From: Gibbula magus
Taxonomy: Eukaryota; Mollusca; Gastropoda; Trochida; Trochidae
Assembly: GCA_936450465.1 (NCBI GenBank)
Contig: OW388294.1
Span: 66,329,575-66,393,574, forward strand
Direction of reading: 5' to 3'
Length of the DNA: 64,000 nt
Part shown: piece by piece, positions 4,201 through 60,780 of the stretch
Position numbering within the stretch: the first letter of the stretch is position 1
How the letters are laid out: every line of letters begins with the position of its first letter
Translations under genes and position numbers: made by a program
The notes under the pieces: model-generated
What the model saw: only the letters and a program-made list of their open reading frames with translations
Databases searched by the model: none
What the model was told of the DNA's origin: nothing

Positions 4201-4762
4201 AAAGAAGATGAAAGAAGATGAAAACAGGATTTTAGGTAATGGCCTGTGAGGCCCTTATTTGGGGTCACAGGGTCACCAAATCTACAATTTAGAATCCCCA
4301 TTGGCCAAGGAGTCTGTACATATAATTTCAGCTCTCTGGAGTCATTGGTTCTGGAGAAGAAGATGAAAATAGCTTTATAGCTTATGACCCCTGTGGCCCT
4401 TATTTGGGGTCACATGGTCACCAAATCTACAATTTAGAATCGCCCTTGGCCAAGGAGTCTGTACATAAAATTTCAGCTCTCTGGAGTCATTGGTTCTGGA
4501 GAAGAAGATGAAAATAGCTTTTAAGGTTATGACCCCTGGGGCCCTTATTTGGGGTCACAGAGTCACCAAATCTACAATTTAGAATCCCCATTGGCCAAGG
4601 AGTCTGTACATAACATTTCAGCTCTCTAGAGTTATTGGTTCTGGAGAAGAAGTCGAAAAAGTGAAAAGTTTACGGACGGACGGACGGACGGACGGACGGA
4701 CGGATGGACGGACGCCATCCCATGCCATAAGCCCATCGGGCCTTTCAGGCCTGATGAGCTAA
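1219..4762. mobile_element. Composite non-autonomous element with GGAC tail and short terminal inverted repeats
   Basis: The left end is GAGCCATGGGCTCTGTAGCT plus CATCAG. The right end has a GGAC run (4672-4714) followed by CTGATGAGCTAA, so the outer ends are inverted. Between them a phrase built on GGGGTCACAGGGTCACC and CTGGAGAAGAAGATGAAA recurs many times, and a larger block of about 550 bp starting AATAATCTTATCTTATC repeats near 1790, 2340 and 3813. No transposase frame is visible. Related shorter copies lie at 44896-45210 and 56008-56712. It fills the intron between the two sushi exons. Confidence 0.65.
2910..3813. mobile_element. Nested element with CCCCCGCCA terminal repeats
   Basis: It begins TCCCCCGCCA and ends TGGCGGGGGATA. 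A GGAC/GCAC run lies at about 3737-3773 near the right end. Inside, the phrase GGAACAAGGGCAATAACTC repeats about every 180 bp. It lies inside the 1219-4762 composite, so it appears to have inserted there. A relative with the same ends lies at 50828-51744. Confidence 0.6.
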
Positions 4763-4782
4763 AAAGATAAAATACCATTTAC

Positions 4783-4983
4783 CTTCACACACTGTTGAAG
4801 TCCCTGTCCATTTGCTGTCGGCCTGGCATGTGCGTAGTCTGTCTCCGACTTGGTCGTAGCCACGGTTACACCGGAAGGTACAGACGGTCCCCTTCTTGAG
4901 TTTGCGTCGCGCAACATGGGAGGTACACGCTGGGGGCCAGATCCGCCCGTTCAGGAGAGGCTTGAGGGTCGGGCAGGACACGA
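4783..4983 (-). CDS. Exon 22: sushi (CCP) domain
   Basis: 67 codons, phase 1-1, acceptor CCCCAG and donor G/GTAAAT. It reads SCPTLKPLLNGRI, then CTFRCNRGYDQVG, then CQADSKWTGTSTVC. Six cysteines, the NG turn, the C-x-GY core and the W near the end match sushi modules that carry an extra disulphide, as in selectins and SVEP1. A TTAA MITE starts about 30 nt upstream of the acceptor. Confidence 0.87.
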
Positions 4984-5013
4984 CTGGGGAAACCAAAATT
5001 GGCATAGCAACGT

Positions 5014-5376
5014 TTAAAGGGGCAGTAGCACGTTTTATTGCAAAATTTATTTTTCCAAATTTCCTATTTATAATGATAATTTGTGCCATTCAAAATTACT
5101 TTAGAGGGTAAAACATCTTATTACACAAACCAATTATCCGTAGTAATGATAACGGTATTGCGTATAAAGCAAAAATTGCATGGCGGCCATTTTATTGTGA
5201 ACACATTTTATTATTTCGAATGACAAAAACGATTCCCATGGCCTTACTGAGCCATGTACACTCATTTTTAACTTGATTTTCCGAAGAGTGAAGGGTGTTT
5301 TACGATTGGTGAAATTATGTTTCAAATACATTTCATCGACTTATTTGAGCGAAAAAACGTGCTACTGCTCCTTTAA
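5014..5376. mobile_element. TTAA-flanked MITE (family B), copy 1
   Basis: It has terminal inverted repeats TTAAAGGGGCAGTAGCACG and CGTGCTACTGCTCCTTTAA, length 363 bp, and no coding capacity. TTAA at both ends suggests a piggyBac-type target site. The interior carries ATGGCGGCCATTTTATTG, shared with the other copies at 14311, 17969, 18310 and 54130. Confidence 0.75.
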
Positions 5377-20454: not shown

Positions 20455-22437
20455 CACTGTCTGGTGAATAAATTTATGGTTATGTAGGGGCTTACCAACA
20501 CAGCTGAATAAATGTTATGGTACATACAAATTGCAAGCTTACTAGCATAGCTAATGGTAAATACCAAACTTACTAACACGGATGAATACTTCATGGCAGT
20601 AAGAGGAGCAAAAGTACAGCTGAATACATTCATTATATATATCGTAAATACCAACCTTACCAACACAGCTGAATACATGTATGGTAAATACCAATTGCAA
20701 GCTTGCCAACGCATCTGAATAGATCAAATGGTAAGTACCAAGCTTACTAACACAGGTAAATACATTATATGGCATAAAACATACAGTAAGAGGAGCAAAG
20801 ACATCTCACCAACACAACTGAATATATTATATGGTAAATACCAACCTTACCAACACAGCTGAATATATTATATGGTAAATACCAACCCTACCAACACAGC
20901 TGAATATATTATATGGTAAATATCAACCTTACCAACACAGCTGAATATAATATATGGTAAATACCAACCTTACCAACACAGCTGAATACATTAAATGGTA
21001 TATACCAACCTTACCAACACAGCTGAATATATTATATGGTAAATACCAACCTTACCAACACAGCTGAATATATTATATGATAAATACCAACCTTACCAAC
21101 ACAGCTGAATATATATGGTAAATACCAACCTTACCAACACAGGTGAATATATTATATGGTAAATACCAACCTTACCAACACAGCTGAATACATTATATGG
21201 TAAATACCAACCTTACCAACACAACTGAATATATTATATGGTAAATACCAACCTTACCAACACAGCTGAATATATTATATGGTAAATACCAACCTTACCA
21301 ACACAGCTGAATATATTATATGATAAATACCAACCTTACCAACACAGCTGAATATATTATATGGTAAATACCAACCCTACCAACACAGCTGAATATATTA
21401 TATGGTAAATATCAACCTTACCAACACAGCTGAATATAATATATGGTAAATACCAACCTTACCAACACAGCTGAATACATTAAATGGTATATACCAACCT
21501 TACCAACACAGCTGAATATATTATATGGTAAATACCAACCTTACCAACACAGCTGAATATATTATATGATAAATACCAACCTTACCAACACAGCTGAATA
21601 TATATGGTAAATACCAACCTTACCAACACAGGTGAATATATTATATGGTAAATACCAACCTTACCAACACAGCTGAATACATTATATGGTAAATACCAAC
21701 CTTACCAACACAACTGAATATATTATATGGTAAATACCAACCTTACCAACACAGCTGAATATATTATATGGTAAATACCAACCTTACCAACACAGCTGAA
21801 TATATTATATGGTAAATACCAACCTTACCAACACAGCTGAATATATTATATGGTAAAAACCAACCTTACCAACACAGCTGAATATATTATATGGTAAATA
21901 CCAACCTTACCAACACAGGTGAATATATTATATGGTAAATACCAACCTTACCAACACAGCTGAAAACATTATATGGTAAATATCAACCTTACCAACACAG
22001 CTGAATATATTATATGGTAAATACCAACCTTACCAACACAGCTGAATATATTATATGGTAAATACCAACCTTACCAACACAGCTGAATATATTTTATGGT
22101 AAATACCAATTGCAAGCTTACCAACAAATCTGAATAAATCAAATGGTAAGTACCAAGCTTACTAACACAGCTGAATATATTTTATGGTAAATACCAATTG
22201 CAAGCTTACCAACATATCTGAATAGATCAAATGGTAAGTACCAAGCTTACTAACACAGATCTGGGACATTATATAGAATGTCGCTGCACAGATGAATACA
22301 TTATATGGCATAAAACATACCGTAAGAGGAGTAAAAAAACAATCAGGGATCGACATTCTTACATGAGGTAGGATAAATGGTAAATACCAACCTTACCAAC
22401 ACCGTTGAATAATTTATATGGTAAATATCAAACATAC
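20455..22437. repeat. 41-bp satellite carrying a copy of the exon 11 donor in each unit
   Basis: The core (about 20801-22110) has about 32 units, period 41 bp; degenerate units flank it on both sides. Read on the gene strand each unit contains TTCAGCTGTGTTG/GTAAGG, which equals the last 13 coding bases of exon 11 followed by a GT donor. A longer block of about 489 bp is itself duplicated (the variant TTAAATGGTATATACC occurs at 20991 and 21480). The array begins immediately at the exon 11 border. Confidence 0.92.
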
Positions 22438-22563
22438 CAACACAGCTGAATCCATCTTTGGAGGTTGCGTATCCCTTCTCCTTACACTGGCAGTGGAAAC
22501 TCCCCACAGTGTTGACACATCCCTCCTCGCACATGCTCTCTCCCTCCATACATTCGTTTACAT
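22438..22563 (-). CDS. Exon 11: calcium-binding EGF domain; its 3' edge is the seed of the 41-bp satellite
   Basis: 42 codons, phase 1-1, donor TTG/GTATGT. It starts (D)VNECMEGESMCEEGC, then CVNTVGSFHCQC, and ends GFSCV/G. The terminal coding bases TTCAGCTGTGTTG and the adjacent donor recur in each 41-bp unit of the array that begins right after the exon. Confidence 0.88.
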
Positions 22564-27399: not shown

Positions 27400-28487
27400 C
27401 TCGCAATCTGGGACCAAGAGGATGTTAGTTTCAACAACAACCACACTAACATCAACAACAACAACAACAAGGTGTTAAGAATACTTGTGTTCTTACCTAC
27501 ACAAGGGATGGTGTATGTCAGATCTACATAAATTCGGATATCACAGCAAAATTAAGACGAGAGCATATTCATTTCCATCATTCCATCAGCGAATACAACA
27601 GCAGCTAAAGCAACAACAACAACATCAACATCTTCAGAAACAACAACATCATATGAACTTGCTAATACACAGGGGATGTTGCTAGGACTAAAACGTGTAT
27701 TTAGTTGAAGAAGATATGCATTTCAACAGCAGCAGGAGCAACAACAGCAGCAGTAAAAACAATTCAACTCAACTCTCAACTACACTACACGGGTCTCCGT
27801 TAAAGCCAGACGGACAATGACACTCACATGTAGGCTACTAAAGTGAGAGAAAAAAAAACATCACGGTCGACATCACAACCATACGGATGCTTACAATCAT
27901 CAGGCAGTCGCATGTATTACGAGGGAAAACAACACAACACTATGATATGAAGACAACATCGATTTTAACAACGTCGACAGGATCAACAACAGTATTTGAG
28001 CCCTCACCTTCATAGGTTATTTTCTTATCTAGTGTCGCTGTCAGAGTCAGAAAGACACTGGCGATCATATGACAAACGAATGTATTAAGGGAAAAGCAAG
28101 GACAGCATATTGAATTCAGCAGCAGCACCATAAACAACATCAGCAGAATCAACACCATCAGCACTATCATCAATATCAGCACCGCCATTAATATAAACAC
28201 CATCAACAACATCAACATCATCATCAGTACCATCATCTATATCAGCACCATCATCAACATCAGCACCATCAACAATATCAGCACCACTATCAATATAAAC
28301 ACCATCAACAACATCAGCACCATCATCAACACCATCATCTATATCAGCACCATCATCAACATCAGCACCATCAACAACATCAACACCATAAACATCACCA
28401 ACAGCACCATCAACATCAGTAGCATCAACAACACCAGCAGAATAAACAACATCACCAGGATCAACAACCACAGTATTTGCGCACTCA
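27400..28487. repeat. CAA/CAT/CAG-rich degenerate repeat with relict copies of the exon 6 edge
   Basis: Mostly imperfect CAA, CAT and CAG triplets. On the gene strand, sequences close to the end of exon 6 and its donor (ATCCTGTGTGTAG/GTGAG) recur at about 27494-27530 (CATCCCTTGTGTAG/GTAAG), 27660-27700 (ACATCCCCTGTGTA), 27785-27835 (GGCTTTAACGGAGACC) and 27975-28030 (GAAG/GTGAGGGCTCAAATAC). Confidence 0.7.
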
Positions 28488-28488
28488 C

Positions 28489-28656
28489 CTACACACAGGA
28501 TGTTGTATCTAAGGTCTCCGTCGAAGCCAGGCAAGCATTCACAATCTTGGGGGGAAAGAGCGTACTGTGTGTCAAGATGAGAAGACACCACAGAGTGAGG
28601 GGGGCACAGATGACATCGTCCGTCGGTCGTACTGTAGTACTCAGTCTTGTTGCATT
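28489..28656 (-). CDS. Exon 6: Ephrin_rec_like (GCC2_GCC3) cysteine-rich domain
   Basis: 56 codons, phase 1-1, acceptor TTACAG and donor G/GTGAGT. Cysteine pattern: ECNKTEYYS, CHLCPPHS, DCECLPGFDG, ILCV/G. The CxxCP and CxC-x2-GF features match the ephrin-receptor-like module. The exon frame stays open past the donor for about 130 codons of Asp/Val/Gly-rich sequence (stop at 28085). Decayed copies of this exon's 3' end lie downstream in the intron. Confidence 0.85.
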   Translation of the reverse strand, partial: NATRLSTTVRPTDDVICAPLTLWCLLILTHSTLFPPKIVNACLASTETLDTTSCV

Positions 28657-28672
28657 CTGTAACATGGTTCAA

Positions 28673-29029
28673 ACTTTTTACATGTGCAATACATCATTTC
28701 TTAGTCAATTCAAATTGTCATATTGTTGTGCTGAATTTAGAACATAATATGTGATTCAAACCCGATCCTTTTCGAGGTAACATTAGTACTTTATATTGTC
28801 ATGCTTACTTTTGAAATTTGGTGACACACAAACAATGCCATTTTAAAGATGACAAAGAATAGTAAGTGCATATTGTTATAAAAACAAGTCTAAAACGTGT
28901 TGACTTCTATGCTTATGTCTTGTCGTAATGGCCGCAAACAGCAGTACGCAACCTTATCAAACTGCCTCAGTATAATCGTTCATTTCAGGCAGTCTTTTCA
29001 AGATCTTATCATGTACATGTAGTCTAACT
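28673..29029. other. Intron sequence without recognised feature
   Basis: AT-rich intron sequence between exon 6 and the element at 29030. No feature is seen. Confidence 0.4.
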
Positions 29030-30998: not shown

Positions 30999-31124
30999 CT
31001 GTACAGCTGATGTTGTCTGCACTGACGACCACGCCCACCTCCTGGCACTCGCACCTGTAATTACCAGGTATGTTGATGCAGGTGTCCTCACACTCATCAG
31101 CCTGGATAAAACACTCGTCGATAT
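30999..31124 (-). CDS. Exon 5: calcium-binding EGF domain, last of the first EGF block
   Basis: 42 codons, phase 1-1, donor G/GTGAGA. It starts (D)IDECFIQADECEDTC, then CINIPGNYRCEC, and ends ISCT/G. It lies on the far side of the minisatellite intron, so the intron between exons 4 and 5 is 10.7 kb. Joined to exon 6 the codons read T-E-C, the position where the other two blocks read V-P-C and Q-L-C. Confidence 0.88.
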
Positions 31125-31392: not shown

Positions 31393-34300
31393 CATCAAAT
31401 ACACCAATACAGTACACTATAATGTATCTACCTTCACAGAACAGAATACACCAACAGAATACACTATAATGTCTCTACCTTCACAGAACAGAATACACCA
31501 ATACAGTACACTATACTGTCTCTACCTTCACAGGACAGAATACACCAATACAGTACACTATACTGTCCCTACCTTCACAAGACAGAATACACCAATACAG
31601 TACACTATACTGTCTCTACCTTCACACGACAGAATACACCAATACAGTACACTATAATGTCTCTACCTTCACACGACAGAATACACCAATACAGTACACT
31701 ATAATGTCTCTACCTTCACACGACAGAATACACCAATACAGTACACTATACTGTCTCTACCTTCACAGAACAGAATACACCAATACAATACACTATAATG
31801 TCTCTACCTTCACAAGACAGAATACACCAATACAGTACACTATACTGTCTCTACCTTCACAGAACAGAATACACCAATACAGTACACTATACTGTCTCTA
31901 CCTTCACACGACAGAATACACCAATACAGTACACTATACTATCTCTACCTTCACAAGACAGAATACACCAATACAGTACACTATACTGTCTCTACCTTCA
32001 CAAGACAGAATACACCAATACAGTACACTATACTGTCTCTACCTTCACAGAACAGAATACACCAATACAGTACACTATACTGTCTCTACCTTCACAGGAC
32101 AGAATACACCAATACAGTACACTATAATGTCTCTACCTTCACACGACAGAATACACCAATACAGTACACTATACTGTCTCTACCTTCACAAGACACAATA
32201 CACCAATACAGTACACTATAATGTCTCTACCTTCACAAGACAGATTACACCAATACAGTACACTATAATGTCTCTACCTTCACAAGACAGAATACACCAA
32301 TACAGTACACTATAATGTCTCTACCTTCACAAGACACAATACACCAATACAGTACACTATAATGTCTCTACCTTCACACGACAGAATACACCAATACAGT
32401 ACACTATTAGGTCTCTACCTTCACAGAACAGAATACACCAATACAGTACACTATACTGTCTCTACCTTCACAAGACAGAATACACCAATACAGTACACTA
32501 TAATGTCTCTACCTTCACAGGACAGGATACACCAATACAGTACACTATACTATATCTACCTTCACAAGACAGAAATACACCAATACAGTACACTATACTG
32601 TCTCTACCTTCACAGGACAGAATACACCAATACAGTACACTATACTATATCTACCTTCACAAGACAGAAATACACCAATACAGTACACTATACTGTCTCT
32701 ACCTTCACACGACAGAATACACCAATACAGTACAATATACTGTCTCTACCTTCACAAGACAGAATACACTTATACAGTACACTATACTGTCTCTACCTTC
32801 ACAGAACAGAATACACCAATACAGTACACTATAATGTCTCTACCTTCACAAGACAGAATACACCAATACAGTACACTATACTGTCTCTACCTTCACACGA
32901 CAGAATACACCAATACAGTACACTATACTGTCTCTACCTTCACAAGACAGAATACACCAATACAGTACACTATACTGTCTCTACCTTCACACGACAGAAT
33001 ACACCAATACAGTACACTATAATGTCTCTACCTTCACAAGACAGAATACACCAATACAGTACACTATAATGTCTCTACCTTCACAAGACAGAATACACCA
33101 ATACAGTACAATATACTGTCTCTACCTTCACAAGACAGAATACACCAATACAGTACACTATAATGTCTCTACCTTCACAAGACAGAATACACCAATACAG
33201 TACACTATAATGTCTCTACCTTCACAAGACAGAATACACCAATACAGTACAATATACTGTCTCTACCTTCACAAGACACAATACACCAATACAGTACACT
33301 ATACTGTCTCTACCTTCACAAGACAGAATACACCAATACAGTACACTATACTGTCTCTACCTTCACACGACAGAATACACCAATACAGTACACTATACTG
33401 TCTCTACCTTCACAAGACAGAATACACCAATACAGTACACTATAATGTCTCTACCTTCACACGACAGAATACACCAATACAGTACACTATACTGTCTCTA
33501 CCTTCACAAGACAGAAAAACACCAATACAGTACACTATACTGTCTCTACCTTCACAGGACAGGATACACCAATACAGTACACTATATTATATCTACCTTC
33601 ACAAGACAGAAAAACACCAATACAGTACACTATACTGTCTCTACCTTCACAGAACAGAATACACCAATACAGTACACTATACTGTCTCTACCTTCACACG
33701 ACAGAATACACCAATACAGTACACTATACTGTCTCTACCTTCACACGACAGAATACACCAATACAGTACACTATAATGTCTCTACCTTCACAGAACAGAA
33801 TACACCAATACAGTACACTATAATGTCTCTACCTTCACAGAACAGAATACACCGATACAGTACAATATACAAATCTACCTTCACAGAACAGAATACACCA
33901 ACAGAATACACTATAATGTCTCTACCTTCACAGGACAGGATACACCAATACAGTACACTATACTGTCTCTACCTTCACACGACAGAATACACCAATACAG
34001 TACACTATACTGTCTCTACCTTCACACGACAGAATACACCAATACAGTACACTATACTGTCTCTACCTTCACACGACAGAATACACCAATACAGTACACT
34101 ATAATGTCTCTACCTTCACAGAACAGAATACACCAATACAGTACACTATAATGTCTCTACCTTCACAAGACAGAATACACCAATACAGTACACTATACTG
34201 TCTCTACCTTCACACGACAGAATACACCAATACAGTACACTATAATGTCTCTACCTTCACACGACAGAATACACCAATACAGTACACTATACTGTCTCTA

Positions 34301-37300
34301 CCTTCACAGAACAGAATACACCAATACAGTACACTATACTGTCTCTACCTTCACACGACAGAATACACCAATACAGTACACTATAATGTCTCTACCTTCA
34401 CAAGACAGAATACACCAATACAGAACACTATAATGTCTCTACCTTCACAAGACAGAATACACCAATACAGTACACTATACTGTCTCTACCTTCACAGAAC
34501 AGAATACACCAATACAGTACACTATAATGTCTCTACCTTCACACGACAGAATACACCAATACAGTACACTATAATGTCTCTACCTTCACACGACAGAATA
34601 CACCAAAACAGTACACTATAATGTCTCTACCTTCACACGACAGAATACACCAATACAGTACACTATAATGTCTCTACCTTCACAAGACAGAATACACCAA
34701 TACAGTACAATATACTGTCTCTACCTTCACACGACAGAATACACCAATACAGTACACTATACTGTCTCTACCTTCACAAGACAGAATACACCAATACAGT
34801 ACACTATACTGTCTCTACCTTCACACGACAGAATACACCAATACAGTACACTATACTGTCTCTACCTTCACACGACAGAATACACCAATACAGTACACTA
34901 TACTGTCTCTACCTTCACACGACAGAATACACCAATACAGTACACTATACTGTCTCTACCTTCACACGACAGAATACACCAATACAGTACACTATACTGT
35001 CTCTACCTTCACAGGACAGAATACACCAATACAGTACACTATACTGTCTCTACCTTCACACGACAGAATACACCAATACAGTACAATATACTGTCTCTAC
35101 CTTCACACGACAGAATACACCAATACAGTACACTATACTGTCTCTACCTTCACACGACAGAATACACCAATACAGTACACTATACTGTCTCTACCTTCAC
35201 ACGACAGAATACACCAATACAGTACACTATAATGTCTCTACCTTCACACGACAGAATACACCAATACAGTACACTATAATGTCTCTACCTTCACAAGACA
35301 GAATACACCAATACAGTACACTATACTGTCTCTACCTTCACAGAACAGAATACACCAATACAGTACACTATACTATATCTACCTTCACAGAACAGAATAC
35401 ACCAACAGAATACACTATAATGTCTCTACCTTCACAGGACAGGATACACCAATACAGTACACTATACTGTCTCTACCTTCACAGAACAGAATACACCAAT
35501 ACAGTACACTATACTGTCTCTACCTTCACACGACAGAATACACCAATACAGTACAATATACTGTCTCTACCTTCACAGAACAGAATACACCAATACAGTA
35601 CACTATACTATATCTACCTTCACAAGACAGAATACACCAATACAGTACACTATACTGTCTCTACCTTCACAGAACAGAATACACCAATACAGTACACTAT
35701 ACTGTCTCTACCTTCACAGAACAGAATACACCAATACAGTACACTATACTTTCTCTACCTTCACAGGACAGAATACACCAATACAGTACACTATACTATA
35801 TCTACCTTCACAAGACAGAAATACACCAATACAGTACACTATACTGTCTCTACCTTCACACGACAGAATACACCAATACAGTACAATATACTGTCTCTAC
35901 CTTCACAAGACAGAATACACCAATACAGTACACTTTACTGTCTCTACCTTCACAGAACAGAATACACCAATACAGTACACTATAATGTATCTACCTTCAC
36001 AAGACAGAATACACCAATACAGTACACTATACTGTCTCTACCTTCACACGACAGAATACACCAATACAGTACACTATACTGTCTCTACCTTCACAAGACA
36101 GAATACACCAATACAGTACACTATACTGTCTCTACCTTCACACGACAGAATACACCAATACAGTACACTATAATGTCTCTACCTTCACAAGACAGAATAC
36201 ACCAACACAGTACACTATAATGTCTCTACCTTCACAAGACAGAATACACCAATACAGTACAATATACTGTCTCTACCTTCACAAGACAGAATACACCAAT
36301 ACAGTACACTATAATGTCTCTACCTTCACAAGACAGAATACACCAATACAGTACACTATACTGTCTCTACCTTCACAAGACAGAATACACCAATACAGTA
36401 CACTATAATGTCTCTACCTTCACAGAACAGAATACACCAATACAGTACACTATACTGTCTCTACCTTCACAGAACAGAATACACCAACAGAATACACTAT
36501 AATGTCTCTACCTTCACAAGACAGGATACACCAATACAGTACACTATACTGTCTCTACCTTCACACGACAGAATACACCAATACAGTACACTATACTGTC
36601 TCTACCTTCACAGAACAGAATACACCAATACAGTACACTATACTGTCTCTACCTTCACACGACAGAATACACCAATACAGTACACTATACTGTCTCTACC
36701 TTCACACGACAGAATACACCAATACAGTACACTATACTGTCTCTACCTTCACAAGACAGAATACACCAATACAGTACACTATAATGTCTCTACCTTCACA
36801 AGACAGAATACACCAATACAGTACAATATACTGTCTCTACCTTCACAAGACAGAATACACCAATACAGTACACTATAATGTCTCTACCTTCACAAGACAG
36901 AATACACCAATACAGTACACTATACTTCTCTACCTTCACAAGACAAAATACACCAATACAGTACACTATAATGTCTCTACCTTCACAGAACAGAATACAC
37001 CAATACAGTACACTATACTGTCTCTACCTTCACAGAACAGAATACACCAACAGAATACACTATAATGTCTCTACCTTCACAAGACAGGATACACCAATAC
37101 AGTACACTATACTGTCTCTACCTTCACACGACAGAATACACCAATACAGTACACTATACTGTCTCTACCTTCACAGAACAGAATACACCAATACAGTACA
37201 CTATACTGTCTCTACCTTCACACGACAGAATACACCAATACAGTACACTATACTGTCTCTACCTTCACACGACAGAATACACCAATACAGTACACTATAC

Positions 37301-40300
37301 TGTCTCTACCTTCACAAGACAGAATACACCAATACAGTACACTATACTGTCTCTACCTTCACACGACAGAATACACCAATACAGTACACTATACTGTCTC
37401 TACCTTCACAAGACAGAATACACCAATACAGTACACTATAATGTCTCTACCTTCACACGACAGAATACACCAATACAGTACACTATACTGTCTCTACCTT
37501 CACAAGACAGAAAAACACCAATACAGTACACTATACTGTCTCTACCTTCACAGGACAGGATACACCAATACAGTACACTATACTATATCTACCTTCACAA
37601 GACAGAAAAACACCAATACAGTACACTATACTGTCTCTACCTTCACAGAACAGAATACACCAATACAGTACACTATACTGTCTCTACCTTCACACGACAG
37701 AATACACCAATACAGTACACTATACTGTCTCTACCTTCACACGACAGAATACACCAATACAGTACACTATAATGTCTCTACCTTCACAGAACAGAATACA
37801 CCAATACAGTACACTATAATGTCTCTACCTTCACAGAACAGAATACACCAATACAGTACAATATACTATATCTACCTTCACAGAACAGAATACACCAACA
37901 GAATACACTATAATGTCTCTACCTTCACAGGACAGGATACACCAATACAGTACACTATACTGTCTCTACCTTCACACGACAGAATACACCAATACAGTAC
38001 ACTATACTGTCTCTACCTTCACACGACAGAATACACCAATACAGTACACTATAATGTCTCTACCTTCACAGAACAGAATACACCAATACAGTACACTATA
38101 ATGTCTCTACCTTCACAAGACAGAATACACCAATACAGTACACTATACTGTCTCTACCTTCACACGACAGAATACACCAATACAGTACACTATAATGTCT
38201 CTACCTTCACACGACAGAATACACCAATACAGTACACTATACTGTCTCTACCTTCACAGAACAGAATACACCAATACAGTACACTATACTGTCTCTACCT
38301 TCACACGACAGAATACACCAATACAGTACACTATAATGTCTCTACCTTCACAAGACAGAATACACCAATACAGAACACTATAATGTCTCTACCTTCACAA
38401 GACAGAATACACCAATACAGTACACTATACTGTTTTTACCTTCACACGACAGAATACACCAATACAGTACACTATACTGTCTCTACCTTCACAGAACAGA
38501 ATACACCAATACAGTACACTATAATGTCTCTACCTTCACACGACAGAATACACCAATACAGTACAATATACTGTCTCTACCTTCACACGACAGAATACAC
38601 CAATACAGTACACTATACTGTCTCTACCTTCACAAGACAGAATACACCAATACAGTACACTATACTGTCTCTACCTTCACACGACAGAATACACCAATAC
38701 AGTACACTATACTGTCTCTACCTTCACACGACAGAATACACCAATACAGTACACTATACTGTCTCTACCTTCACACGACAGAATACACCAATACAGTACA
38801 CTATACTGTCTCTACCTTCACACGACAGAATACACCAATACAGTACACTATACTGTCTCTACCTTCACACGACAGAATACACCAATACAGTACACTATAC
38901 TGTCTCTACCTTCACACGACAGAATACACTAATACAGTACACTATACTGTCTCTACCTTCACACGACAGAATACACCAATACAGTACACTATACTGTCTC
39001 TACCTTCACACGACAGAATACACCAATACAGTACACTATAATGTCTCTACCTTCACACGACAGAATACACCAATACAGTACACTATAATGTCTCTACCTT
39101 CACAAGACAGAATACACCAATACAGTACACTATACTGTCTCTACCTTCACAGAACAGAATACACCAATACAGTACACTATAATGTCTCTACCTTCACACG
39201 ACAGAATACACCAATACAGTACACTATACTGTCTCTACCTTCACACGACAGAATACACCAATACAGTACACTATACTGTCTCTACCTTCACAAGACAGAA
39301 TACACCAATACAGTACACTATACTGTCTCTACCTTCACAAGACAGAATACACCAATACAGTACACTATACTGTCTCTACCTTCACAGAACAGAATACACC
39401 AATACAGTACAATATACTGTCTCTACCTTCACAGAACAGAATACACCAACAGAATACACTATAATGTCTCTACCTTCACAGGACAGGATACACCAATACA
39501 GTACACTATACTGTCTCTACCTTCACAGAACAGAATACACCAATACAGTACACTATACTGTCTCTACCTTCACAGAACAGAATACACCAATACAGTACAC
39601 TATACTGTCTCTACCTTCACACGACAGAATACACCAATACAGTACACTATACTGTCTCTACCTTCACACGACAGAATACACCAATACAGTACACTATACT
39701 GTCTCTACCTTCACACGACAGAATACACCAATACAGTACACTATACTGTCTCTACCTTCACAAGACAGAATACACCAATACAGTACACTATACTGTCTCT
39801 ACCTTCACAGAACAGAATACACCAATACAGTACACTATACTATATCTACCTTCACAGAACAGAATACACCAACAGAATACACTATAATGTCTCTACCTTC
39901 ACAGGACAGGATACACCAATACAGTACACTATACTGTCTCTACCTTCACAGAACAGAATACACCAATACAGTACACTATACTGTCTCTACCTTCACACGA
40001 CAGAATACACCAATACAGTACAATATACTGTCTCTACCTTCACAGAACAGAATACACCAATACAGTACACTATACTGTCTCTACCTTCACAAGACAGAAT
40101 ACACCAATACAGTACACTATACTGTCTCTACCTTCACAGAACAGAATACACCAATACAGTACACTATACTATATCTACCTTCACAGAACAGAATACACCA
40201 ACAGAATACACTATAATGTCTCTACCTTCACAGGACAGGATACACCAATACAGTACACTATACTGTCTCTACCTTCACAGGACAGGATACACCAATACAG

Positions 40301-41823
40301 TACACTATACTGTCTCTACCTTCACAGAACAGAATACACCAATACAGTACACTATACTGTCTCTACCTTCACACGACAGAATACACCAATACAGTACAAT
40401 ATACTGTCTCTACCTTCACAGAACAGAATACACCAACAGAATACACTATAATGTCTCTACCTTCACAGAACAGAATACACCAATACAGTACACTATACTG
40501 TCTCTATCTTCACATGACATAATACACCAATACAGTACACTATAATGTCTCTACCTTCACAAGACAGAATACACCAATACAGTACACTATAATGTCTCTA
40601 CCTTCACAGAACAGAATACACCAATACAGTACACTATACTGTCTCTACCTTCACACGACAGAATACACCAATACAGTACAATATACTGTCTCTACCTTCA
40701 CAAGACAGAATACACCAATACAGTACACTATACTGTCTCTACCTTCACACGACAGAATACACCAATACAGTACACTATAATGTCTCTACATTCACAAGAC
40801 AGAATACACCAATACAGTACACTATAATGTCTCTACCTTCACACGACAGAATACACCAATACAGTACAATATACTGTCTCTACCTTCACAAGACAGAATA
40901 CACCAATACAGTACACTATAATGTCTCTACCTTCACAAGACAGAATACACCAATACAGTACACTATAATGTCTCTACCTTCACACGACAGAATACACCAA
41001 TACAGTACACTATAATGTCTCTACCTTCACAAGACAGAATACACCAATACAGTACAATATACTGTCTCTACCTTCACAAGACAGAATACACCAATACAGT
41101 ACACTATAATGTCTCTACCTTCACAAGACAGAATACACCAATACAGTACACTATAATGTCTCTACCTTCACACGACAGAATACACCAATACAGTACACTA
41201 TAATGTCTCTACCTTCACACGACAGAATACACCAATACAGTACACTATACTGTCTCTACCTTCACAAGACAGAATACACCAATACAGTACACTATAATGT
41301 CTCTACCTTCACAAGACAGAATACACCAATACAGTACACTATAATGTCTCTACCTTCACACGACAGAATACACCAATACAGTACACTATACTGTCTCTAC
41401 CTTCACACGACAGAATACACCAATACAGTACACTATACTGTCTCTACCTTCACACGACAGAATACACCAATACAGTACACTATAATGTCTCTACCTTCAC
41501 AAGACAGAATACACCAATACAGTACATTATAATGTCTCTACCTTCACACGACAGAATACACCAATACAGTACACTATAATGTCTCTACCTTTACACGACA
41601 GAATACACCAATACAGTACACTATACTGTCTCTACCTTCACAAGACAGAATACACCAATACAGTACACTATACTGTCTCTACCATCACACGACAGAATAC
41701 ACCAATACAGTACACTATAATGTCTCTACCTTCACAGAACAGAATACACCAATACAGTACACTATACTGTCTCTATCTTCACAAGACAGAATACACCAAT
41801 ACAGTACACTATACTGTCTCTAC
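31393..41823. repeat. 47-bp minisatellite, about 220 units, each with a copy of the exon 4 donor
   Basis: The unit on the plus strand contains GTCTCTACCTTCACAAGACA and AGAATACACCAATACAGTAC, then ACTATA(A/C)T. On the gene strand it reads CTTGTGAAG/GTAGAGAC, identical to the last coding bases of exon 4 and its donor. Units differ mainly at four bases after TTCACA (AGA, CGA, GGA or GAA), at TATACTG versus TATAATG, and at CAATACAGTAC versus CAACAGAATAC. The 47-bp period rotates through three frames with few stops, which creates long open frames on the plus strand (up to 1,034 codons at 37441-40545) that are not genes. Confidence 0.97.
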
Positions 41824-41949
41824 CTTCACAAGACAAACCATCATCAGCTAGAACATAACCGTCAGCGTCACAGTAGCAGTTGAAGTAGCCGAACTGGTTC
41901 TCGCAGCGATCATCGCAGCCGCCATTGCCTAGCTGGCACTCGTCGGTAT
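41824..41949 (-). CDS. Exon 4: calcium-binding EGF domain; its 3' edge is the seed of the 47-bp minisatellite
   Basis: 42 codons, phase 1-1, acceptor CCAG and donor AAG/GTAGAG. It starts (D)TDECQLGNGGCDDRC, then CENQFGYFNCYC, and ends GLSCE/G. The last dozen coding bases and the donor (CTTGTGAAG/GTAGAG) are repeated in every unit of the array that fills the next 10.4 kb. The first codons past the donor stay open for about 20 residues (GRDSIVYC...) before a stop at 41762, so read-through would truncate the protein. Confidence 0.9.
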
Positions 41950-58401: not shown

Positions 58402-60780
58402 CTAATGACAAAAGTGACGCATATGTCGCTCCAAGTCCTTTGCCCATGCGAACGTCATTCTACATGAACTGCACTGGAAGGGTTTGACTCCGGAGTGCCT
58501 AGTTGTCCGGTGGTACTTGAGGTCGTCACCCCTGAAGAACGTCTGGTCGCAGAGGTCGCATTTGTAGGGGCGTTCTCCCGTATGGTAGCGCACATGGCGT
58601 TCCCTATTGGGCTTTGCGGTGAATATTTTCCCGCAGTACTCGCATACGAACCTTCGATGAAGAGAGCTGCTGTGGATTTCAAAATTTGCGAAATCCTTGA
58701 AAGACTCCTGACAAACTTGGCACTGGAAGTCCGTTTGGGACCGGAATAGGATTTCAGGGGTGACAACTCTCTCAAAACCAGGAGATCGGATGTGGATTCT
58801 CTCAAGAACTATCTCCTTCATACTTCCGGGAGAGCCGTCAAATGGCGAAGGAGAAGATTCGTTGTTTGGAGATGCGTCTGGGGGGTAGTCGGTGTTTGAT
58901 GGCATGAAGTCTTCCTGGAGGGATCTTAGTTCTTCTTCATGATCAGTTATCTCCCTTTTGATGGTAATAGGATCTCCATTGAGGTCAACAACGGTTTCCG
59001 GGTCATTCTTGCAAGGACTACCGAGTCTTGGGAACAAAGAAGACCTTGGTTCGGAGGACTTCATTCTATCAAACGCGGCGAGCTGGGGCAGTTTAGTTTT
59101 GGAGAGATCAACCATGGGAACGTTCTCAGGAACAGGATGAGGAACATCCTCTTTCTTCTGCTCATGGAGCGTGTCGTCATCTCGAGTAAGTTTCATCGCC
59201 TGGATGTCGTTCGTGAATTTGAGATTTTCTTTTCGCAGTTCTATCATCGGCGTCTCTTGTTCCACATCCCGGTTGAGTTTTGTTGATTCATGAGCCTTGT
59301 ATATATGATCATGGAGAGTATTTTCTGATGGGAACCCAATTTGACATTCTGTGCACCAGTATTGGCTTGAGCTCGTGCTCTCCTCCTCGTTCTCCTGGCT
59401 CATACTGTCGTCCTCAGGGGTAGCAGTGGCAGTGGCAAGGTTCATTGGTTCGTTGTGGGTGGCAATGTGAGCTTTAAGGTCTGAGGCGAATCTAAACTGT
59501 TTGGAGCATATATGACACGACTGAGTTCTACTTTGAGCATGGGAATATTCATGTCTGATGAACTGGTCATAACTGGCGAGTACCACAGAGCAAAAGCAGC
59601 AACCGTAGCTTGTGAAGGAATCGTCAAATTTGTGAGTCTTCAAATGGGAGCTGTATTCGAAGGGGTCCGTGAACTGTTGGTTACAAGGCTTGCATGAATA
59701 CGTCTTGGTTGAATGTGTTAGCGAGTGCTTCATCAGATCCAGAGCATTGATACCAATGAATGAACAACCTTCACATTGGAAGTTTTGGAATTCTGGGTGA
59801 GTCTTCTTGTGCCTGGAGAAGAGGATGTCATCACTGAATCCTTCTCCACACTGTGGACAAACGTGCATCAACTTTGTATGATGTTCTTTTGCCATGTGGT
59901 TGCGGACACACGACCGGTCTGTATAGCCTTTCCCACATATACTACAGCGGAATGGTTTGTTGTACGAATGTCGAAGAACATGAGCCTTGAGGTCATCCTT
60001 GCGAGTAAACCCCTGAGTACATACGCTGCATTTGTATGGCCTGACCCCAGTGTGGAGCCTGAAGTGACGCTTCAGGTTGTTCCTAGCGGTGAAACCTTTG
60101 AAACAGATCCTGCAGGTGAATAGTGAATGTTCTCGCAGATTATGAGTGTCAAAACTCATGACATCGGGTACGATAGTGAAACATCGTTTGCATAGAAGGC
60201 CCTGGGGGTGTGATACAGCTGAACTGTGGGTCGGGAGGTTGGCTGTGATTAGAGTTGAAGAGTTGGATGCTTCTGGATGATGGTCTGTCTCCGCGCTTCC
60301 ACTTCGTTGATCATCTTCAGCATTGGCATTATCATCACTACCTTTGAGTTTATCAGAGTCGGGACTGCTTAAAGAAAGAGATGGATTCTTTCTGTCAGGG
60401 GTCTCGCCTGAAGCTGGTTTTGTATCGGATTGAGCTCCAAGGATCTCCTGATTGCCTCTGTCTTCCATGGACATATCGGACATGTAGGGGAAAGCGCCTT
60501 CTCCGCAGGAGTCCACGGGACTGTCGTTGATTTGATTAGAGATCCTCTTCTTCTTCCTCTTGGGCGGGGAACACTTGGCATCAACATATCCCTGCTTCGG
60601 GAAGGACTTCCAAACATTGTCGTGGATCTTGACGACGATAGGTTGGGGCGTGTCTTCAACTGTGATACAGATGATCCCGTCCACCTCAAGCTTGGTGTTG
60701 AAGGATACCGTTTCCCGACACAGGGTGAGGACCGACTGCTTCAGAAGCCGCATCAGCAGCTCCCTCTCTGGGTCAGACAT
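58402..60780 (-). CDS. C2H2 zinc-finger protein, 14 fingers, single coding exon
   Basis: 792 codons ending TAG. C2H2 fingers fall at about residues 197-218, 222-243, 250-271, 278-300, 308-328, 335-356, 363-383, 394-414, 422-442, 476-497, 687-708, 712-733, 740-762 and 769-788, i.e. a block of nine plus one, then a 190-residue gap, then four. HTGERPYKC linkers occur in the last block and HTGVRPYKC in the first. A basic patch PPKRKKKR (72-79) is a likely nuclear signal, and ITIKREI (about 606-612) fits a sumoylation site. The first 60 residues are folded-looking and finger-free; I do not recognise a named domain. It is probably a nuclear DNA-binding regulator. The ATG has G at -3, but the frame stays open upstream to a splice acceptor at 60831, so translation might begin in an earlier exon. 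Confidence 0.92.
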   Translation of the reverse strand: MSDPERELLMRLLKQSVLTLCRETVSFNTKLEVDGIICITVEDTPQPIVVKIHDNVWKSFPKQGYVDAKCSPPKRKKKRISNQINDSPVDSCGEGAFPYMSDMSMEDRGNQEILGAQSDTKPASGETPDRKNPSLSLSSPDSDKLKGSDDNANAEDDQRSGSAETDHHPEASNSSTLITANLPTHSSAVSHPQGLLCKRCFTIVPDVMSFDTHNLREHSLFTCRICFKGFTARNNLKRHFRLHTGVRPYKCSVCTQGFTRKDDLKAHVLRHSYNKPFRCSICGKGYTDRSCVRNHMAKEHHTKLMHVCPQCGEGFSDDILFSRHKKTHPEFQNFQCEGCSFIGINALDLMKHSLTHSTKTYSCKPCNQQFTDPFEYSSHLKTHKFDDSFTSYGCCFCSVVLASYDQFIRHEYSHAQSRTQSCHICSKQFRFASDLKAHIATHNEPMNLATATATPEDDSMSQENEEESTSSSQYWCTECQIGFPSENTLHDHIYKAHESTKLNRDVEQETPMIELRKENLKFTNDIQAMKLTRDDDTLHEQKKEDVPHPVPENVPMVDLSKTKLPQLAAFDRMKSSEPRSSLFPRLGSPCKNDPETVVDLNGDPITIKREITDHEEELRSLQEDFMPSNTDYPPDASPNNESSPSPFDGSPGSMKEIVLERIHIRSPGFERVVTPEILFRSQTDFQCQVCQESFKDFANFEIHSSSLHRRFVCEYCGKIFTAKPNRERHVRYHTGERPYKCDLCDQTFFRGDDLKYHRTTRHSGVKPFQCSSCRMTFAWAKDLERHMRHFCH

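Follow-up and report, generated by a model that had tools for sequence, protein, structure and literature searches.

Donor-anchored intronic minisatellites with unrelated 47-bp and 41-bp units in one EGF-module gene of a mollusc-like genome

One intron of a gene built from EGF modules contains a minisatellite whose 47-bp unit takes in the end of the preceding exon together with its 5' splice donor, and a second array, with a 41-bp unit, starts in the same manner at the donor of another exon of the same gene. We consider it likely that such a donor-anchored intronic minisatellite arises from small duplications at the exon border that are then amplified in place, that the first donor is kept, and that the array is most likely without a function under selection. 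The design is already known from human genes, in that arrays 1 and 2 have a near-exact precedent in the donor-anchored intronic VNTR of the ABCA7 type; what is new beyond the precedents is its occurrence twice in one gene, together with a possible two-copy seed in another.

The gene lies on the minus strand of the analysed stretch of 64,000 nucleotides (the window) and is built as one calcium-binding EGF (cbEGF) module per exon. Recognition by pattern gave 18 EGF exons of 114-129 nt, phase 1-1; Sushi exons and cysteine-rich exons, the latter by eye presumably ephrin-receptor-like, are also part of the gene. Pfam assigned EGF_CA in the joined peptide from 7 of the 18 EGF exons, including the exon at which array 1 begins (exon 4 of the initial annotation), and Sushi in two ORFs (4748-5089 and 87-419), while the single cysteine-rich ORF that was tried, 28085-28672, had no Pfam match. 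Homologues at E <= 0.001 number 6451; among the 120 listed the best three are gastropod proteins with 41-42% identity, namely 'fibrillin-1-like' proteins of Littorina and Gigantopelta and a hypothetical protein of Nucella, and bivalves, among them Pecten, Mytilus, Mya and Mercenaria, are represented among those listed as well. Upstream of the EGF gene, C2H2 zinc fingers are encoded by a single ORF of 792 aa at 58402-60780 on the minus strand.

The anatomy of array 1 is directly evident from the letters. It occupies a 10.4-kb block of the intron, at 31398-41835 on the minus strand (TRF: period 47, 222.0 copies, 94% matches), and opens without a gap at the donor of the cbEGF exon 41824-41949 (126 nt, phase 1-1), whose GT stands at 41822-41823 in the context AAG/GTAGAG; its register extends over the last 12 bases of the exon (41835-41824), which form the first partial repeat copy. 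The initial annotation had described about 220 copies of a 47-bp unit starting at the authentic donor of exon 4, and both the number and the gapless start are confirmed. In a cyclic alignment the authentic donor is followed by 221 full units, with lengths of 47 (212 units), 48 (7) and 46 bp (2); they comprise 45 distinct sequences and differ pairwise at a mean of 2.5 of 47 positions. The proposed match between the unit and the exon 4 border also holds, since the 12 exonic bases agree with the T-type unit at 12 of 12 positions and with the majority unit at 11 of 12, and exact 12-mers of either unit are absent from the rest of the window on both strands. An 18-mer taken across the exon border recurs 220 times downstream at up to 4 mismatches; the same test on the other 17 EGF donors gave 0 recurrences at 16 and 40 at one, the donor of array 2.

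The GT is intact in 219 of the 221 full units of array 1, and AAGGT is found 218 times, nearly all units reading AAG/GT. A longer motif had been said to lie in each unit: as the exact 17-mer CTTGTGAAG/GTAGAGAC it is present in 62 units, so this part of the description does not stand; the 15-base core TGTGAAG/GTAGAGAC is present in 199. The two units in which GT has become AT are at 41776 and 40507 (minus strand). The former is unit 2 (41730-41776), which is the decoy closest to the authentic donor, carries an in-frame TAG and is the sole decoy that escapes that stop; for the nearest decoy to be among the two with a dead GT has a chance of about 2 in 220, a coincidence that was noticed post hoc. 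Variation elsewhere in the unit is illustrated by position 40, where the 221 units divide into 82 with G, 73 with T, 65 with C and 1 with A. The array is most similar to itself at a lag of 85 units, with nine consecutive units identical at lag 84, and such block duplications fit large unequal exchanges.

Array 2, which the initial annotation missed along with the published precedents, is likewise plain in the letters, at 20490-22452 on the minus strand. It starts at the donor (22436-22437, TTG/GTATGT) of the cbEGF exon 22438-22563, whose last 14 nt fall within the 41-bp unit: the exon terminates in ATTCAGCTGTGTTG, and the intron begins with a copy of the unit that is identical to the consensus at 34 of 41 positions, followed by diverged stretches and then by a homogeneous core. 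TRF places this core at 20808-22258 with 35.2 copies, and a forced cyclic alignment of the array gives 48 full and 2 partial rows; of the full rows, 33 have at least 38 of 41 positions identical, and the others, which form stretches close to the exon and at the opposite end, are diverged. The unit reads as the last 14 nt of the exon, then GTAAGG, with 34 occurrences of GTTG/GTAAG in the array, and it is unrelated to the 47-bp unit. Reiterated donors are found at 2 of the 18 EGF donors of the window and at 0 of 6 non-EGF exon ends, where the first phase-1 GT was taken as the donor.

The closest known system is the VNTR in intron 18 of human ABCA7, described in PMC5954066 as an array of 25-bp units in a C-rich region that adjoins exon 18 and includes its donor, with alleles of 298-10678 bp, or about 12-427 units. 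According to the same account, the donor of the second unit is used at 2 +/- 1%, independent of VNTR size, and one retained unit shifts the frame; skipping of exon 19 (132 nt), which leaves the frame intact, increases with VNTR length (PMC5954066). Arrays 1 and 2 are alike in that each adjoins an exon whose donor it includes, in the recurrence of the donor GT from unit to unit (219 of the 221 full array-1 units) and, for array 1, in the exon that follows being in frame (126 nt here, 132 nt in ABCA7 as described). They differ in that the ABCA7 unit, as described, begins at the GT, whereas the 47-bp and 41-bp units include 12-14 nt of exon, and in the presence of two arrays in one gene of a mollusc-like genome, seen here in the sequence of one assembly. 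The arrays of this distant animal share their anatomy with a human VNTR that has been linked to altered splicing and to disease risk. They are a natural experiment on donor choice by the spliceosome, with some 200 near-identical candidates, and the gene offers it twice, each time with a different, unrelated unit.

The minisatellite of IFI6 (6-16), whose unit and array are much shorter than those here, was reportedly shown by Turri et al. in 1995 to carry multiple splice donors. At an exon border, its downstream units are described as functioning as splice donors, and the alternative donors are reported to yield three mRNA species and isoforms (PMC4526556); unlike these, later donors of array 1 would give stops and not isoforms. 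Further precedent comes from the Rogers model, in which introns are gained through tandem duplication of AGGT, and from a potato case in which a short duplication crosses an intron-exon boundary (both as presented in PMC4974935). What the arrays have in common with this model is a short duplication in tandem that reaches a splice border. Intron gain by AGGT duplication was rejected as an account of the present case, the copies being located in one existing intron between two open EGF exons. A search of the openly licensed literature returned no paper on a splice-site minisatellite in a bivalve intron, which is not proof of absence in print.

Both units are private to the window by exact pattern, a criterion that diverged copies elsewhere would escape: all 178 matches to a unit-1 26-mer and all 19 matches to a unit-2 27-mer in the 1.47-Gb assembly (140 contigs) fall within it. 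Among the 120 fetched homologues, P0067 and P0005 end in GLSCED, and for the array-2 exon 11 of the 12 best rows begin DINECMEG and go straight into the next D. The exonic parts of the units encode the conserved end of an EGF module, with counterparts in other species, which makes growth from exon to array the most likely direction. That a dispersed satellite or mobile repeat landed beside the exon, the exonic match being due to chance or conversion, is highly improbable; several other arrays do lie within the window, but the privacy of both units by exact pattern (diverged copies being beyond such a search) argues against it, as does a match that is in register with conserved coding sequence at two donors. 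Seeding at the border followed by growth in place, as the initial annotation had proposed, agrees with this privacy, with the conserved exon tail and with the block duplications in array 1.

We infer that the final 12 nt of the EGF exon, together with the donor and ~35 nt of intron, were first copied by a short duplication in tandem, and that slippage or unequal exchange then multiplied this piece in situ to 222 units. Since the exon-side copy encodes the end of the EGF domain, that copy would have been retained and would still be the working donor; the same process would have run a second time in the gene with an unrelated 41-bp unit. Array 1 itself most likely has no selected function.

A possible seed stage of this process is present in another EGF gene, at C17:25388983, in the form of a 46-bp tandem duplication with two copies, each of which holds the donor; the duplicated piece consists of 33 nt of exon tail and 13 nt of intron (L011, about 2504), and the case is the only one of its kind among 115 survey rows (72 distinct donors). 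Together with the arrays, this two-copy case suggests an origin for VNTRs of this type in a small border duplication that is anchored on the exon side by purifying selection. For the survey, 150 of 1467 candidates from an EGF search were scored and stretches were taken for 40 of the 150 places and for 30 loci, giving 123 exons with a donor (five without a phase-1 GT were left out); a further eight with less than 200 nt downstream were dropped. The 115 remaining rows represent 72 distinct donor 24-mers, some exons being counted twice through overlapping loci, and many rows belong to one duplicated C17 cluster. This dense cluster of very similar, regularly spaced EGF exons (G000:C17:25335562-25388978) looks like exon-block amplification.

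Within 220 nt and at up to 4 mismatches, the donor is repeated in 1 of the 115 rows; at up to 5 mismatches, two more weak single matches appear (123 rows). At any distance, 52 of the 115 rows have a donor match, many of these being, by their spacing, neighbouring duplicated EGF exons. For acceptors, one match each within 230 nt was found in 3 of 83 rows, and inspection of the three showed the acceptor of a neighbouring duplicated exon in one and single look-alikes in two; among the acceptors of the window, 3 of 18 have one match each. A preference of minisatellite seeding for donors over acceptors is suggestive only, since the contrast comes from three donor cases. The other multi-copy arrays of the window (units of 126, 105, 146, 433, 145 and 169 bp, and of 18 bp) reach no listed donor, as judged from TRF coordinates and from reading 28080-28700, and TRF on three of the five flanking loci (L002 and L005 left out) detected no array above 3.5 copies. 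The 18-bp repeat, GATGTT-like and located at 28123-28468 on the minus strand, lies ~20 nt past the donor of a cysteine-rich exon (28489) and is open in frame with that exon; the donor is not included in it.

The 46-bp two-copy stage in one gene and the 41-bp and 47-bp arrays in another are the cases behind a broader reading, in which minisatellites of this lineage are born repeatedly at exon donors, oftener than at acceptors, by way of a process tied to the donor such as co-transcriptional pausing or U1 binding, and in which array length tunes the in-frame skipping of EGF exons. Were this so, array alleles would set the number of EGF domains in the protein; we regard this reading as unlikely.

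Scored with a matrix of 64 distinct EGF donor 9-mers of this genome, some of which, the lowest-scoring, may be miscalled, the authentic donor of array 1 is weak at 4.2 bits against a median of 8.5 (6 of the 64 are lower); it nonetheless outscores 91% of the 2074 GTs in the gene region, and a GTAGAG donor is apparently used by another exon of the gene too (15808). Among the array-1 decoys, 202 of 220 are identical to the authentic 9-mer and 14 are stronger (12 GTAGAT, 1 GTAGGG and 1 GTAAAA). In array 2 the authentic donor TTG/GTATGT scores 7.9 bits and the usual decoy TTG/GTAAGG 8.5, with U1 duplex energies of -5.3 and -8.5 kcal/mol, respectively. That 14 array-1 decoys and the usual array-2 decoy are stronger than the authentic donors counts against our preferred explanation.

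The reading frames of array 1 can be followed directly. Donor 1 joins the next cbEGF exon (30999-31124, 126 nt, phase 1-1, symmetric) in frame; at donor 2 the GT is replaced by AT and the frame is shifted, and donors from the third onward read through the in-frame TAG in unit 2, leaving donors 1 and 2 as the only ones of 221 that are stop-free to the end of the next exon. The earlier suggestion that three units would restore the phase is contradicted by this stop. The frame of the array-2 exon closes at about 22346, ahead of most units, so that any protein variant would be truncated.

The first donor of array 1 probably stays in use through exon definition, in which the donor lying closest, across the exon, to the acceptor upstream is preferred. 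For near-equal donors in long-intron (exon-definition) events the upstream donor is reported to be favoured, although this preference is given as only 60% overall and donor strength as deciding 86% of events (PMC9225289); leakage to decoys could therefore be large. We infer that leakage to later array-1 donors would produce premature-stop transcripts, probably removed by nonsense-mediated decay, and that, by analogy with ABCA7, the length of array 1 may raise the skipping of the next EGF exon, which, being 126 nt long and symmetric, would remove one EGF module in frame.

The low-variant donor 9-mer and the dead nearest decoy leave room for selection, and the array might have been kept as a U1-binding platform, in which adjacent weak donors either increase U1 occupancy around the authentic donor, itself weak, or protect the 10-kb intron from early polyadenylation. 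The authentic array-1 donor is indeed weak and identically repeated in 202 of 220 decoys, its 9-mer varies less than most of the unit (19 variants against a median of 37 per stretch, with fewer in 6 of 47 stretches), and suppression of intronic polyadenylation by U1 is described in print (PMC3826338, PMC5499120). Low variation is also produced by homogenisation of tandem arrays, however, and array 2 has an authentic donor of near-median strength, so that donor weakness is no common cause; we judge selection for a platform to be distinctly unlikely. True use of several donors, with transcript or protein variants that gain 47 nt per unit (41 nt in array 2), would accord with the GT kept in 219 of 221 array-1 units, with array-2 decoys stronger than the authentic donor and with the described use of later donors in human ABCA7 (PMC5954066) and IFI6 (PMC4526556). 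It is very unlikely here, given the TAG met from donor 3 of array 1, the frame-shifting AT at donor 2 and the frame that closes in array 2.

It is extremely improbable that the array is a chain of recursive AG/GT sites for stepwise removal of the long intron, a resemblance that the initial annotation had pointed out; in its favour, nearly all units read AAG/GT (218 AAGGT). A credible acceptor before the GT is absent: in the three common unit types the scores of the AAG context run from -2.1 to -3.9, lower than any of the 92 acceptors of the matrix, whose minimum is 1.75, and the -2.1 of the T-type unit corresponds to about the 55th percentile of 1653 AGs in the gene region. The array-2 unit, moreover, reads TTG/GT, so AG is not common to both arrays. 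Amplification of a border duplication, with the first donor kept, remains the reading that we prefer for both arrays.

Two minor features of array 1 were also noted. By eye, the unit may form hairpins, CTGTCT/AGACAG around the donor and ACAGTA/TACTGT, and their stems include its most variable columns (10, 39 and 40). Opposite the gene, the plus strand has an open frame of 1034 codons within the array (37441-40545), which is probably the mechanical outcome of a repeat unit that is stop-free in these phases.
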